DNA of 64,000 nucleotides, taken from positions 62,001 through 126,000 of the forward strand of contig NZ_FRDM01000004.1 in assembly GCF_900143215.1 (NCBI RefSeq), read 5' to 3'. The position numbers and the translations under genes are program-made. Below the pieces are notes generated by a model. It made no database searches and was not told where the DNA came from. It saw only the letters and a program-made list of their open reading frames with translations. Below, in pieces: positions 11,816 through 61,505 of this stretch (its first letter is position 1; every line of letters begins with the position of its first letter). The stretch is from Geodermatophilus obscurus. Lineage in GTDB: Bacteria > Actinomycetota > Actinomycetes > Mycobacteriales > Geodermatophilaceae.

Positions 11816-11932
11816 GCGTGCCTCCTTCGTCGGCCGTGCGCAGCCCGGAGGCTGCGCACGGCGTCGTCGATGCTGTGCGCTCCGCTCACATGATCCCGTA
11901 TCCCCGGCGCAGGTCCAACCCGAGTAGGAGGA

Positions 11933-12125
11933 CCACCCTTCCCCCCACGCCTCGCACGCTCGGCGCGGGCCCCTGAAGGGTGGCCGTTCCAGCACCTCAC
12001 CGAGCTCGGGCCGGGGCCCTGCAGGAGGGCCGTTCCAGCACCTCACCACGCTCGGCGCGGGCCCCTGAAGGGTGGCCGTTCCAGCACGTCACCGAGCTCG
12101 GCGCGGGCCCTGGAGGGTGGCCGTC
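11933..12125. repeat. tandem array of ~46-bp hairpin repeats
   Basis: Fills the gap between DUF3117 and the tag gene. The tract GGCCGTTCCAGCAC recurs at 11982, 12028 and 12074, with a decayed fourth copy at 12119, giving a 46-bp period. Between them the core GCTCGGCGCGGGCCCCTG is repeated with variation. The first unit has clear pairing arms, CCACCCTTC (11933-11941) and GAAGGGTGG (11975-11983). It ends exactly at the stop codon of the glycosylase gene (12126, minus strand). Same superfamily as the elements at 24.1, 39.1, 56.2, 57.05 and 61.4 kb. No coding potential is credible here. Confidence 0.85.
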
Positions 12126-24113: not shown

Positions 24114-24322
24114 GGACCCCTGCAGGGTCCCGCCGCCGGCCTCGTCCCGAGGCTCGCCGGCCCCCTGCAGGTGGAAGGACCCCGTCCTCCTCACCACTCG
24201 CCAGCTCGCGGCGAGCCTCTGGACGGGGCCTGGCGCGAGCCGGCGAGTGGCGGGGGCAGGGGTCCTCTGACGAGGCGTGAGGAGGACGGGGTCCTGCCAC
24301 GGTGGGGGGCAGGGGTCCTTCC
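24114..24322. repeat. compound interspersed hairpin repeats between convergent dapD and hydrolase genes
   Basis: The whole 209-nt gap is repeat. One clean element has arms CCCCGTCC (24180-24187) and GGACGGGG (24221-24228) around the conserved core. A variant with CTGCAGG in both arms occupies 24116-24170. Reverse-oriented material follows to 24322, where the minus-strand hydrolase stop is directly followed by GGAAGGACCCC. Tracts at 24277-24322 are shared with 56270-56318. Confidence 0.85.
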
Positions 24323-25426
24323 TCAGGCATCCGACGGCATGGCTGCCGGGACGTCGAGGTGCTCGACCAGGGCGCCGACGAACTCCTGCGGCCGCTCGAC
24401 GTGCGGGGAGTGCCCGGCACCCGGCAGCACGACCTCCCGGTAGGTCCCGCCGCGGGCGGCGTAGCGGTCCAGGACGGCGCGGGTCTGGGCGACCATCGGC
24501 TGCGGCGGGCAGACGTCGGCGCCCGGCCAGCCCTGCACCGCACCCAGCATCCCCAGGTGCGCCAGGTCGAACAGCGACGCGTCGGAGACGATGGCGTCGG
24601 CGTCCCCGCGGATCCACAGGACCGGCGGCCTGGCCGGCAGGTCGGTGATCCCGGAGAGGTCGAACACCGTCGGCGCCATCGTGTTGAGCACGCCTCGCTC
24701 CCCCGGCGCCACACCCGGCCAGGTGGCGGAGGGAGCGGCGTCCCCCGCGTAGTGGTCCTCGCTGGTGCGGGTGGAGAGCATCGCGGTGACGAACACGTCC
24801 TCAAGCTGCGGGTCGATGGGCAGCGACCCGGGCGCCACGTAGAAGGCGCGCAGGATCGACCTCGGGCTGGTCGGGCGGTCGGCCGTGGTGTCGCCGGCGG
24901 CGAGCGCGGCCACGAACTCCGGGTTGGCTGCGCCTGCCCCGGAGCCCGCGCCGTCCTCCGACAGCCGTCGTCCCTCCTGCCCGGTGGTCCCCCCGAAGCC
25001 GTACGGGGAGATCGGCGCGACCAGCACCACGGATGCGACCTGGTCGGGCCGGTCGAGCAGGTACTGCAGCACCACGCCGGCACCCATGCTCCAGCCGACC
25101 AGGTGCACCCGGTCGAGGCCGAGGGCGTCGACGAGCGCAGCGAGGTCGTCCGCCCAGTCCCGCACCCCGCGCCGTGCGTCGATCGGCAGCGGGTCGGTGT
25201 CGCCGTAGCCCCGCAGGTCGACTGCGAGCGGCCGCACGTGGCCGGTCGCGGCCAGGGCGAGCACCGGCTGCTGCCAGAACAGCGCTGAGCTGACGTTGCC
25301 GTGCACGAAGAGAACGACCTCCCCGGGCCCGGCCGGGTCGACGCCCTCGGGGTGCAGCACGTTCTGGGTCAGCCGCGCAGTGGACACCCGAGTCGCAGTG
25401 GTGCCGGGCAGCAGGGTGTCGCTCAT
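24323..25426 (-). CDS. alpha/beta hydrolase
   Basis: 367-residue alpha/beta-fold hydrolase. HGNVSSALFW supplies the oxyanion region, VGWSMGAG is the nucleophile elbow (Ser), the acid is likely in IRGDADAIVSD, and the His is in GAGHSPHVERPQ. A ~100-residue insertion between elbow and acid forms a cap. Substrate unpredictable. ATG 25426 has GAGGAG upstream. No signal peptide. Sits inside the dap region without an obvious pathway link. Confidence 0.85.
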   Translation of the reverse strand: MSDTLLPGTTATRVSTARLTQNVLHPEGVDPAGPGEVVLFVHGNVSSALFWQQPVLALAATGHVRPLAVDLRGYGDTDPLPIDARRGVRDWADDLAALVDALGLDRVHLVGWSMGAGVVLQYLLDRPDQVASVVLVAPISPYGFGGTTGQEGRRLSEDGAGSGAGAANPEFVAALAAGDTTADRPTSPRSILRAFYVAPGSLPIDPQLEDVFVTAMLSTRTSEDHYAGDAAPSATWPGVAPGERGVLNTMAPTVFDLSGITDLPARPPVLWIRGDADAIVSDASLFDLAHLGMLGAVQGWPGADVCPPQPMVAQTRAVLDRYAARGGTYREVVLPGAGHSPHVERPQEFVGALVEHLDVPAAMPSDA

Positions 25427-38936: not shown

Positions 38937-39107
38937 GTGAGCGGCATCGACAAGATGAAGAACAAGGCTGAGGAGCTTTCCGGCAAGGGCAAGGAGAGCG
39001 TCGGCGAGGCGACCGGCGACCGCGACCTGCAGGCCGAGGGCAAGGCTGACCAGGCGTCGGGCAACCTCAAGCAGGCGGGCGAGAAGGTCAAGGACGTCTT
39101 CAAGTAG
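38937..39107 (+). CDS. CsbD family stress protein
   Basis: 56-residue hydrophilic protein: VSGIDKMKNKAEELSGKGK then LQAEGKADQASGNLKQAGEKVKDVF, the CsbD pattern of amphipathic helices. CsbD proteins are strongly induced in general stress; molecular role unknown. GTG 38937 has AGAGGAG upstream. A GGGTAT -10 element before it predicts sigma-B-type control. The stop is directly followed by a hairpin-repeat element. Confidence 0.9.
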   Translation: MSGIDKMKNKAEELSGKGKESVGEATGDRDLQAEGKADQASGNLKQAGEKVKDVFK

Positions 39108-39180
39108 AAGGACTCCGCTGCCCCCCACCCCTCGCCGGCTCGGGTTGGGTTCCTGCAGCAGGGCCGTTCCAGCACGTCAA
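39108..39180. repeat. interspersed hairpin repeat after csbD
   Basis: Begins at the csbD stop with GAAGGACTCCGCTGC, continues with CACCCCTCGCCGGCTCGGG and ends CTGCAGCAGGGCCGTTCCAGCAC. The beginning matches the 61.4-kb elements, the end matches the 12-kb array, so it links both sets into one superfamily. Arms pair only partly. Confidence 0.75.
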
Positions 39181-48296: not shown

Positions 48297-49195
48297 CGCT
48301 GGGACATCCCCTCGGGCGGTGGCGGGCCCAGCCACGACGGCCGGTTCTCCCCCCGCGGGGCCCGGCGGCGCGACCCGCCCGCGGCCGCGGTCGCCACCAG
48401 TGGCGGCAGCCAGGCGTCGCGGGCGGCCAGCCGGGCCAGCAGTTGGTCGACGTAGCGGGCGCGCACCTCCGAGAGGGCCCCGGCCTCCCCACCCCCCGCG
48501 AGCTCGGGGCGCTGCCCCGGCCGGGGCCACCCCTGTGCCGCCTCCGCCAGCCAGTCGTCGGGCACCTGGCGCAGCACCTGCTCCAGCAGCGGGCGGGTGA
48601 CCCGCGGGCCGAGCGCGGCGTCGGCGGCGCGGACGTCGGGCGAGCACTCGACGAGGGCGTGCTGCGCGGCGTCGTAGGGCCGGGACACCGCGGCGGCGGC
48701 CCCGGGCCAGTGGTGGTGGAAGGTCAGCGCGGCCCCGTGGTCGATCAGCTGCAGCCGGCCGTGCCAGAACAGCATGTTGGGGTTGCGCCAGGAACGGTCG
48801 ACGTTGCCCACGAGCGCGTCGAACCACAGCACCCGCCCGGCCAGCTCGGACTCGACCGACCCGACGCCGGCCTCGAAGTCCAGCGCCCCGGGCAGGTAGT
48901 CCAGCCCCAGGTTGACCCCGGCCGAGCGCTGCAGCAGCTCCTGCACCTCGACGTCGGGCTCCCCCACCGCCAGCTCCGGCGCCACGTCGACGGTCACCAG
49001 CGCCGGCACCGGCAACGACAGCGCCCGGGCCAGCTCGCCGCAGACCACCTCGGCGACGAGCACCTTCACGCCCTGCCCGGCGGCCCGCCACTTGACCACG
49101 TAGGTGCCCAGGTCGTCGGCCTCCATGAGCCCCGGCAGGGAGCCACCCTCGCGCAGCGGGGTGACGTAGCGGGTGGCGGTGACGGCGGGCAGCAC
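48293..49195 (-). CDS. HipA-like Ser/Thr kinase domain protein
   Basis: 300 residues. Shows an ATP-binding region (DDLGTYVVKWRAAGQG with the Lys) and a catalytic loop GNVDRSWRNPNML followed by LQLIDHGAAL (DxG-like), the HipA/PI4K-type kinase arrangement. No HipB-like antitoxin is encoded nearby; the partner is DUF3037. Start GTG 49195 gives a compact protein; longer frames lack support. Target unknown. Confidence 0.8.
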   Translation of the reverse strand: MLPAVTATRYVTPLREGGSLPGLMEADDLGTYVVKWRAAGQGVKVLVAEVVCGELARALSLPVPALVTVDVAPELAVGEPDVEVQELLQRSAGVNLGLDYLPGALDFEAGVGSVESELAGRVLWFDALVGNVDRSWRNPNMLFWHGRLQLIDHGAALTFHHHWPGAAAAVSRPYDAAQHALVECSPDVRAADAALGPRVTRPLLEQVLRQVPDDWLAEAAQGWPRPGQRPELAGGGEAGALSEVRARYVDQLLARLAARDAWLPPLVATAAAGGSRRRAPRGENRPSWLGPPPPEGMSQR

Positions 49196-56210: not shown

Positions 56211-56317
56211 GGAGTCCCCCGGCCTCCTCGCAGGGTCCCGCCGCAGGCACCGTCCCGAGCTTGCCAGGGGTGAGGAGGACGGGTCCTCCGACGGTGGGGA
56301 CGAGGGGTTCCTTTCTC
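56211..56317. repeat. interspersed hairpin repeats between convergent peptidase and reductase genes
   Basis: The full gap is repeat-derived. 56270-56317 (GGTGAGGAGGACGGG, then ACGGTGGGG and AGGGGTTCC) is homologous to 24276-24322; on the minus strand the reductase stop is directly followed by GAGAAAGGAACCCC. Confidence 0.75.
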
Positions 56318-57112
56318 TCAGCCGCTGGCGCCGAAGCGCTCGACGCGGACGTCGGTCGCCGGGATCCCCAGCTCGACGAGCAGCTGGCTGGCCGCCTCCG
56401 CGAAACCGGCCGAGCCGCAGACGTACGCCGTCTGGCCCGGCTCCCACAGCGGCACGAGGTCGGCGGCGGTGAGCCGGCCGGCCGGTCGCACCCCGTGCGG
56501 CTCGCGGGTGGTCCCCACCAGGGCGCCGGCCTCGAGCAGCTCGTCGGCGTAGGGCAGCTCGGCGAGGGTGCGGGTCGACACGGCGGCGCGCAGCAGGTCG
56601 CCGCGGCCGAGCTCGCGCGCGGTGCGCAGCATGGCCACCAGGGGCACGACGCCGGTGCCGCCGCCGACCAGCAGCGCCGGCCGCTCGCCGTCCCACACGA
56701 ACCAGCCGCCGATCGGGCCGCGCACCTCCAGCCGGTCGCCGGGCTCCACGACGTCGGCGAGGAAGGTGGACACCTCGCCGTCGTCCAGGCGCTCGACGAA
56801 CAGCTCGACCAGCGGGTTCCCCGGCGCGGAGGCGACCGAGTACGACCGCTGCGCGGTGTAGCCGTCCTCGGCGGTCAGCCGGACGACGTAGTGCTGGCCG
56901 GCCAGGTGCTGCACCCGGTCGGCGACGTCGAGCCGCAGCTCCACCGCCCGCGGCACCGGCCGCCGGATGCCGACGACCGTGGCGGTGCGCCACCCACCGC
57001 TGGGCGCGCGGCCGGCCCCGTTCCCAGGCCCGCCCGGGGCAAGGACGGCCCCGCTCAGAGGCTCATCCCGAGCCTGCGAGGGATGAGGAGAGCGGGGTCC
57101 TTCTTCAGTCAC
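56318..57112 (-). CDS. ferredoxin-reductase-like FAD/NAD oxidoreductase with repeat-derived N-terminus
   Basis: 264-residue flavoprotein of the FNR superfamily. FAD site QRSYSVASAP, NAD(P) site GGGTGVVPLVAMLR, and C-terminal CGSAGFAEAA. The conserved protein begins at about residue 40 (WRTATVVGIRRPVPRAVEL), but no ATG, GTG or TTG lies just before it; the only start is GTG 57112, overlapping the molybdoenzyme stop by 8 nt. Residues 2-28 are therefore translated from an interspersed hairpin element. Probably passes electrons to or from the molybdoenzyme. Confidence 0.85.
   Translation of the reverse strand: MTEEGPRSPHPSQARDEPLSGAVLAPGGPGNGAGRAPSGGWRTATVVGIRRPVPRAVELRLDVADRVQHLAGQHYVVRLTAEDGYTAQRSYSVASAPGNPLVELFVERLDDGEVSTFLADVVEPGDRLEVRGPIGGWFVWDGERPALLVGGGTGVVPLVAMLRTARELGRGDLLRAAVSTRTLAELPYADELLEAGALVGTTREPHGVRPAGRLTAADLVPLWEPGQTAYVCGSAGFAEAASQLLVELGIPATDVRVERFGASG
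57040..57107 (-). repeat. hairpin repeat inside the reductase reading frame
   Basis: Reads leftward from the molybdoenzyme stop: GAAGGACCCCGCTC, conserved core, GAGCGGGGCC. Arms at 57090-57097 and 57049-57056. Almost identical to the 61.4-kb copy. Confidence 0.85.
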
Positions 57113-57713
57113 CCTGGTAGCGCTGCTCGCGCCACGGGTCGCCGCGGTCGTGGTAGCCGTTCTGCTCCCAGAAGCCGGGCTGGTCGCGCTGCAGGAGGGT
57201 CAGCCGGGTGACCCACTTGGCGCTCTTCCAGAAGTAGAGGTGCGGCACGAGCAGCCGCACCGGGCCGCCGTGCTCGACCGGCAGCGGGCCGCCGTCGTAC
57301 TCCCAGACCACCCATGCCTTGCCGCCGGTGACGTCCGCCAGCGGCAGGTTGGTGGTGTAGCCGGTCTTGGACGTCGCGACGACGAAGTGCGCCTCGGGGG
57401 TCGGGCGGGCCGCCTCGAGCAGCGTGTCGACGCTGACGCCGGCGAACCAGGTGTCGAACTTCGACCACGTGGTGACGCAGTGGATGTCGCCGCGGTACTC
57501 CGAGCGAGGCAACCGGTGGGCCTCGTCCCAGGTCCACGTCGTCGGGCTCTCCACCCGGCCGTCGACGGTGATGCTCCAGGTCCCGGGCGAGATGCGCGGC
57601 GTCGGCTCGGCGGTCAGCACCGGCCAGTCGCGGCCGGCGTCGTACTGCCCCGGCGGCAGCCGCGGGTCGCGCTCCCGGCGCCGGCCGAGGAACCCTCGCG
57701 TGGGTCCAGCCAT
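57105..57713 (-). CDS. sulfite-oxidase-like molybdopterin oxidoreductase
   Basis: 202-residue YedY/sulfite-oxidase-fold enzyme. The molybdenum-binding Cys is in DIHCVTTWSKFDTWFAG, and GPVRLLVPHLYFWKSAKWV is the conserved C-terminal block. No Tat signal is visible, so it appears cytosolic. Works presumably with the overlapping flavin reductase. ATG 57713; divergent from sdhC. Substrate unknown. Confidence 0.88.
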   Translation of the reverse strand: MAGPTRGFLGRRRERDPRLPPGQYDAGRDWPVLTAEPTPRISPGTWSITVDGRVESPTTWTWDEAHRLPRSEYRGDIHCVTTWSKFDTWFAGVSVDTLLEAARPTPEAHFVVATSKTGYTTNLPLADVTGGKAWVVWEYDGGPLPVEHGGPVRLLVPHLYFWKSAKWVTRLTLLQRDQPGFWEQNGYHDRGDPWREQRYQGD

Positions 57714-60545: not shown

Positions 60546-61381
60546 CAGCGACACGTGAGGGCGCGAGCTTCGCGTCCGGCACGGCGACCGATCCGGCCAT
60601 GGCCCCCCACGGCATGACGCTGACGCTGCGCATCTGGCGTCAGAAGGGCCCGGCCGACAAGGGCCGGATGGTGACCTACCAGGTCGAGGACATCTCCCCC
60701 GACATGTCGTTCCTGGAGATGCTCGACGTCCTGAACGAGAAGCTGATCCTCGCCGATGACGACCCGGTGGTCTTCGACCACGACTGCCGCGAGGGCATCT
60801 GCGGCAGCTGCGGTCTGATGATCAACGGCACGGCGCACGGCCGCGGCACCTCGGGCGGTCCCACGACCACCTGCCAGCTGCACATGCGCAAGTTCAAGGA
60901 CGGCGACACGATCGACATCGAGCCGTGGCGCGCGACCGCGTTCCCGGTGATCAAGGACCTGTCGGTCGACCGCGGCGCCCTCGACCGGATCATCCAGTCC
61001 GGCGGTTACATCAGCGCGCCGACGGGGACCGCGCCCGAGGCCCACTCCATCCTGGTGCCGAAGAAGGACTCCGACGCGGCCTTCGACGCGGCGACCTGCA
61101 TCGGCTGCGGCGCCTGCGTGGCGGCCTGCCCGAACGCCTCCTCGATGCTGTTCACCGCGGCCAAGGTCAGCCACCTGGGGCTGTTCCCGCAGGGCCAGCC
61201 CGAGCGCAACGAGCGGGTGGTCAACATGATCGCCCAGCAGGACCTCGAGGGCTTCGGCGGCTGCACCAACATCGGCGAGTGCTCGGCGGCCTGCCCCAAG
61301 GGCATCTCGATGGAGAACATCTCCCGGCTCAACCACGACCTGCTCGGGGCGCTGCGCGCCGGCGCCCGGCCGAAGAGCTGA
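60542..61381 (+). CDS. sdhB: succinate dehydrogenase iron-sulfur subunit
   Basis: 279-residue subunit with [2Fe-2S] ligands [10 protein letters not shown] plus TTCQLH, [4Fe-4S] [12 protein letters not shown] and [3Fe-4S] [15 protein letters not shown] 60542 overlaps the sdhA stop (GTGA). The stop is directly followed by a hairpin-repeat element and then a strong terminator. Confidence 0.95.
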
Positions 61382-61440
61382 AGAAGGACCCCGCTCCCCT
61401 CACCCCTCGCGAGCTCGGGGCGAGCCTCTGAGCGGGGCCA
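61379..61440 (+). repeat. interspersed hairpin repeat after sdhB
   Basis: Starts with the sdhB stop itself (TGAAGAAGGACC). Arms CCCCGCTC (61389-61396) and GAGCGGGG (61430-61437) enclose the core CCTCACCCCTCGC / GAGCTCGGGGCGAGCCTCT, which itself can fold (CTCGC with GCGAG). Confidence 0.85.
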
Positions 61441-61443
61441 GCC

Positions 61444-61486
61444 GCCGGAGGGTGGGGACCCGAGCACCGGGTCCCCACCCTCCGGC
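61444..61486. terminator. perfect 18-bp terminator hairpin after sdhCAB
   Basis: GCCGGAGGGTGGGGACCC (61444-61461) pairs exactly with 61469-61486 around a 7-nt loop, between convergent sdhB and the M1-type lipoprotein gene (stop 61506). Confidence 0.8.
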
Positions 61487-61505
61487 GCGTCGGGGGCCGG
61501 GCGGT

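Follow-up and report, generated by a model that had tools for sequence, protein, structure and literature searches.

The 64,000-nt stretch of Geodermatophilus obscurus DNA analysed here (the window) raises the question of what the hairpins are that directly follow the stop codons of several of its genes, and how they came to lie there. The spread of REP-type palindromes and their attachment to gene ends have no settled explanation; the usual answer is a RAYT transposase. A first-pass annotation of the window had placed hairpin copies at 61379, 57107, 24174 and 11933, and all four are present. We built a covariance model, R1, from 40 distinct copies of this ∼62-nt repeat (alignment A2). At E ≤ 1 it matches the window 11 times, and five of these matches are strong (58–85 bits). 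At a probability of about 0.55, our reading is that the repeat is a REP-like, non-coding interspersed palindrome of the Geodermatophilaceae that has spread within genomes and is mainly joined to stop codons.

Three of the strong copies belong to a sequence group that we call subfamily I. One (61381–61442, plus strand, R1 84.7 bits) is joined to the TGA (61379–61381) of an sdhB-like iron-sulfur subunit gene (60599–61381, plus strand; gene call, Pfam Fer2_3 and Fer4), and another (57044–57105, minus strand, 82.4 bits) to the TGA of a molybdopterin-binding oxidoreductase gene (57105–57713, minus strand; gene call, PF00174). The third (24172–24233, plus strand, 81.2 bits) belongs to a nested cluster that has a convergent gene on either side, and a copy with 9-bp arms (11926–11987, plus strand, 72.6 bits) has no called stop ahead of it. 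The proposal that copies start at stop codons thus holds for the first two of these four and not for the others. The fifth strong match, absent from the annotation, is a subfamily II copy (39106–39167, plus strand, 58.3 bits) joined to the TAG of a CsbD-like gene (38937–39107, plus strand; gene call, PF05532). Weaker matches include two partial copies in the nested cluster (24211–24270, minus strand, 32.2 bits; 24135–24192, minus strand, 23.6 bits, E 0.007), an outer-copy fragment with lead and left half next to the stop codon of an alpha/beta hydrolase gene (24286–24323, minus strand, 17.7 bits, E 0.14; not significant alone), and a diverged copy behind a FAD-binding oxidoreductase gene (56218–56291, minus strand, 29.9 bits). 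The entire gap between the two convergent genes (24114–24323) consists of element pieces in both orientations. Behind the 11926 copy, ∼50-nt repeats of the 3′ half run head-to-tail (GTTCCAGCAC...GGCC, 11988–12110), one of which is matched by R1 (12023–12079, plus strand, 17.4 bits, E 0.17; not significant alone). A weak match within a called gene (48470–48531, 37 bits) is either chance or a decayed copy. Rfam gave no match at the gathering score in the window.

Read along the upstream gene, the element comprises a short A/G-rich lead, GG, a bulged A, an outer stem of 8–9 bp, a 2 × 5 internal loop, an 8-bp inner stem, the loop TCGCNNGCTC, and return arms that end in CC. We examined this anatomy in 145 distinct elements from loci of the family, selected to have the loop and mostly Watson-Crick stems. 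In this set the bulge after GG is an A in 127 elements, outer arms of 8 bp (89 elements) and 9 bp (56) occur, and there are 26 distinct arm sequences with perfect complementarity. Subfamily I has the form CTCACC...GGCGAG with arms such as CCCCGTCC; subfamily II has the form CCCACC...GGCGGG, 9-bp arms and often the tail GTTCCAGCAC.

Within the window, the shared core described by the annotation is exact at 61379, and the other three copies deviate from it. Its observation that the arms differ and change together is borne out: the pairs are CCCCGCTC/GAGCGGGG at 61379 and 57107, CCCCGTCC/GGACGGGG at 24174 and CCACCCTTC/GAAGGGTGG at 11933. Across A2, both stems covary. Eleven of the 18 pairs have changed on both sides, with 51 double-change cells compared with 14.1 in column shuffles; none of 500 shuffles reaches the observed value on any of five covariation measures, and all measures drop when the partner is slid by 1 to 3 columns. 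Because A2 was picked by similarity of the inner core and by the fixed loop, the outer stem, with double changes in six of its 10 pairs, is the cleaner evidence. The predicted folding energy of six window copies is unremarkable (z from −2.7 to +1.0): one copy falls below −2, and two are no more stable than their shuffles.

The element is abundant in its own genome and largely confined to its family. With up to 3 mismatches the inner core occurs at 126 places in the genome, and its reversed control at none. R1 at E ≤ 0.001 gives 94 matches in 864 kb of the 5.24-Mb assembly (37 in 464 kb that include the window and 57 in the following 400 kb), a sample of 800 kb plus the window that was taken by contig position regardless of content. 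Assuming that this sample is representative, the whole genome would contain several hundred copies. The core is present in 95 of 112 Geodermatophilaceae genomes and nine of 12 genera, with up to 173 matches (in genome G014) and none in the genera g5, g8 and g10. Outside the family, nine of 392 genomes from a class-wide draw of 394 contain one 3-mismatch match each, compared with three for the reversed control. Likewise, R1 matched at least 34 of 37 family genomes and none of 24 from other families of the order, with at most ∼88 candidates scored per genome. We recognised no earlier report of the element in the accessible parts of the open-access literature on Geodermatophilaceae and Geodermatophilus, a scope that takes in few subscription papers.

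The junction with stop codons is sharp. With genes called by a codon-usage script written for this analysis, GGACC starts 2–6 nt after a same-strand stop in 42 of the 94 matches, and exactly 4 nt after it in 31; random intergenic placement would put 1.4% of copies at 2–6 nt. The enrichment behind stops that the annotation implied is therefore real. Fifty-one matches have no called stop 0–6 nt away. Some of them are inner copies of nests, at least 10 matches at gaps of ∼25–37 nt resembling the inner parts of nested copies in their surrounding sequence; others are unexplained. Only seven of the 94 overlap called genes. When matches are grouped into clusters, 62 of 84 have a lead 1–7 nt past a facing stop, a count made with a lead motif that has no chance rate of its own. 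Divergent gaps make up 29% of inter-gene bases and contain only four of the 84 clusters, none of them stop-joined.

The sequence of the stop also matters. Element-bearing stops (gap 0–8) comprise 37 TGA, six TAG and one TAA, compared with 727, 99 and seven among all stops, and a C precedes 38 of 42 element-bearing stops compared with 467 of all 833. In a stricter test, elements occur at 36 of the 727 TGA stops, and all 36 are among the 442 CTGA stops. Yet none of 599 intergenic CTGAs that are not stops carries an element, including 159 sense-strand sites that lie no more than 150 nt past a stop. Neither TGA nor the CTGA motif is therefore sufficient as a target. These empty CTGAs, the transcribed ones among them, are not explained by a simple DNA target and form the strongest open point of the analysis. 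Other genera show comparable junctions: at gaps of 0–5 nt, nine of 13 matches in G035 and the single match in G030; at gaps of 0–6 nt, six of 12 in G454 and six of seven in G027, the misses in these genera including matches thousands of nucleotides from a called stop. The lead itself is a suffix of GTRGAA in 19 of 43 stop-joined matches, and GTRG stands 6–3 nt before GGACC in 20 of 51 matches away from stops. At a few junctions, such as GAT-TAA-GGACC in L193, the stop looks as if it were supplied by the element's lead. One idea is that a 4-nt gap might put the stem at the helicase site of the ribosome.

The annotation had left open whether selection acts on folded RNA or on single-stranded DNA. 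Of the two, single-stranded DNA fits the pairing and folding of the strands better than folded mRNA. In the sense of the gene, the fourth inner pair is A·C in 91 of the 145 elements, A-T in 29, G-C in 22 and C·C in three, and it is never G·T. On the complementary strand the A·C, A-T and G-C combinations become G·T, A-T and G-C, all of which are able to pair. The outer arms lean the same way, with 26 A·C compared with 12 G·T among 70 distinct arm pairs (p = 0.03); the inner stem without pairs 4 and 7 shows no clear strand difference. From the sense strand (40 copies) to the antisense strand (39 copies; alignment A4, which is A2 without the perfect palindrome L013), standard pairs rise from 88.3% to 92.9% overall and from 87.2% to 96.5% in the inner helix. 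With RNA parameters, 140 of 145 elements have the more favourable predicted energy on the antisense strand; with DNA parameters the balance is 117 to 23 for that strand. Mismatch polarity and predicted folding energy together suggest that it is the upstream gene's template strand that folds, and single-stranded DNA is the simplest form in which it would do so. This is short of proof, since A+·C pairs in RNA or shared ancestry could also give a strand preference.

Comparison of orthologous gene ends indicates that the stop stays in place and the element is gained or lost around it. We read this turnover from the printed sequences and not from automatic totals, as the automatic element test gave false calls (e.g., genes 28, 49, 65, 104, 106 and 128) and misses (gene 21, G013). 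Of 24 genomes of the genus, read by eye, 11 have a sense copy directly at the sdhB stop, the C-terminus being alike; there is also one reversed copy at the stop (L176) and one reversed copy further on (L170). The oxidoreductase stop has a copy in 13 of 24 genomes. The same stop is occupied by different subfamilies in different species, and among six genomes with the CsbD-like gene four have four different copies and two have none. Copies also lie inside copies: at the oxidoreductase site (L194, L196–L198), the nested arrangements include an outer arm that is short of several bases. Turnover between species and nesting point to a mobile element. By eye, we recognised no target-site duplication at two sites in 24 orthologs each, where the flanks have diverged, and no clean target-site footprint among these diverged orthologous flanks. 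Relatives that have the element and relatives that lack it both conserve a long, GC-rich perfect hairpin downstream of sdhB (61445–61487). This gene therefore has a terminator-like structure besides the element, and the downstream hairpin is probably its terminator.

Among known systems, the element most resembles REPs, which consist of a 5′ GT(A/G)G followed by a palindrome and are linked to RAYT transposases, lost in some strains, according to the portion of the literature consulted (PMC3686654). REPs are described, in the sections available, as lying mainly between tandem or convergent genes and adjoining 3′ ends, with GTAG termini that often supply TAG stops (PMC3733652). The element is likewise a palindrome of variable sequence dispersed outside genes, near gene 3′ ends and scarce in divergent gaps, with a putative GTRG tag on part of its copies and termini that may supply a stop. 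Unlike REPs, it is a longer, two-stem hairpin with a bulge and a conserved loop, and its junction at CTGA stops is sharper. It is the enzyme that keeps the element from qualifying as a REP: PF01797, the Y1 domain of REP transposases, has no match in any of the 37 family genomes searched, and control genomes do match. A RAYT/IS200-type transposase is thus rejected as the driver, which leaves an abundant REP-like palindrome in a family in which that domain was not found. Loss of RAYT across a whole family with copies still turning over would be unusual.

Searches for other enzymes and carriers gave the following. Reverse transcriptase (PF00078) was rejected as a driver; it occurs in 18 of 37 family genomes (one below cut-off) and in none of the high-copy genomes G014, G015, G016 and G025. 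An autonomous copy, with an open reading frame between the arms, found no support in the ∼2.0 Mb scanned: in 10 arm pairings at 250 nt or more the arm pairs, by eye, with unrelated sequence or with another element, and the scan gave no convincing autonomous copy or parent transposon with the same ends. Phage or plasmid carriage found no support, in that the 61381 copy was unmatched in plasmid and phage collections (E ≤ 1e-5) and the exact core was absent from the viral contigs searched. MITEs and other small mobile repeats are small, non-coding, dispersed and nested. The element shares all four properties and differs in lacking a recognised target duplication and parent transposon within the two sites and ∼2.0 Mb noted above.

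The annotation had offered two roles, a transcript-end function or a mobile repeat that prefers certain sites. The mobile repeat is the better fit because presence varies from species to species, copies nest and the sdhB copy precedes a separate conserved hairpin; the elements may still affect transcript ends. The foremost alternative, which we judge unlikely on balance, is a cis-acting mRNA element that lands more loosely, with the copies behind stops kept because they tune translation termination or shield the end of the message, a role suggested for E. coli REPs within 15 nt of a stop. Sense orientation, sharp stop spacing, the unpaired A/G-rich lead and the near absence from divergent gaps would all fit such an element. 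So would the reported lowering of translation by REPs near stops, ribosome stalling being cited for REPs within 15 nt of a stop, in the part of the source available (PMC12306157). However, the better pairing and folding belong to the template strand and not the mRNA strand, the same gene in closely related species differs in the presence of an element, and a message would have no obvious use for the strict C before TGA. Ordinary transcription terminators, also hairpins at gene ends, are a very improbable identity for the repeats: beyond the sdhB hairpin that persists without the element, copies separate the oxidoreductase gene from a gene that starts shortly after it, no T-run follows the four window copies inspected, and neither the conserved loop nor the lead sequence is needed for termination.

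Nor need covariation reflect selection on a fold. Template-switch correction between the arms could produce it by mutation alone, and some copies (L013) are indeed perfect palindromes; yet the bulged A, the unequal internal loop and the A·C position persist, which arm correction would tend to erase, and we consider this origin improbable. Least probable of all are dispersed sites of the integron attC type, recombined by a tyrosine recombinase. Integron attC sites usually sit behind the stop of a cassette. The likeness is one of topology, the element being an imperfect hairpin with a favoured bottom strand and an extrahelical base, and attC sites likewise fold as bottom strands with extrahelical bases, as stated in the part of the source available (PMC3053210). 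Against membership, the RYYYAAC/GTTRRRY core sites are absent from the element consensus (39 copies), subfamily II having the tail GTTCCAGC, and the copies are scattered. An integron integrase was also rejected, with TIGR02249 over cut-off in none of 61 genomes; weaker matches in all 61 are to generic tyrosine recombinases.

For the REP-like mobile palindrome that we prefer, a mechanism can be sketched. The hairpin would owe its conservation to recognition in single-stranded, folded form, probably of the template (bottom) DNA strand; copies would be inserted directly 3′ of stops in sense orientation, with a preference for CTGA; and the mover of this putatively non-autonomous element would be an enzyme other than a RAYT/IS200-type Y1 transposase. 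We conjecture, tentatively and with the odds well against it, that such a mobile DNA hairpin inserts behind stops genome-wide, at any gene, through an enzyme for which the folded template strand is the substrate and which in some way responds to translation ends. If so, every gene end would be a harmless landing site for a hairpin. The stop junction is so sharp that targeted insertion can be told apart from selection, and species turnover together with a clear structural signature makes the responsible protein searchable. A separate long near-palindrome (GAGGTATAGGAAGCTCTCC...GGAGAGCTTCCTATACCTC), AT-richer than its surroundings, lies ∼100–165 nt past the sdhB stop in Geodermatophilus amargosae (L061) and in G001 (L176).
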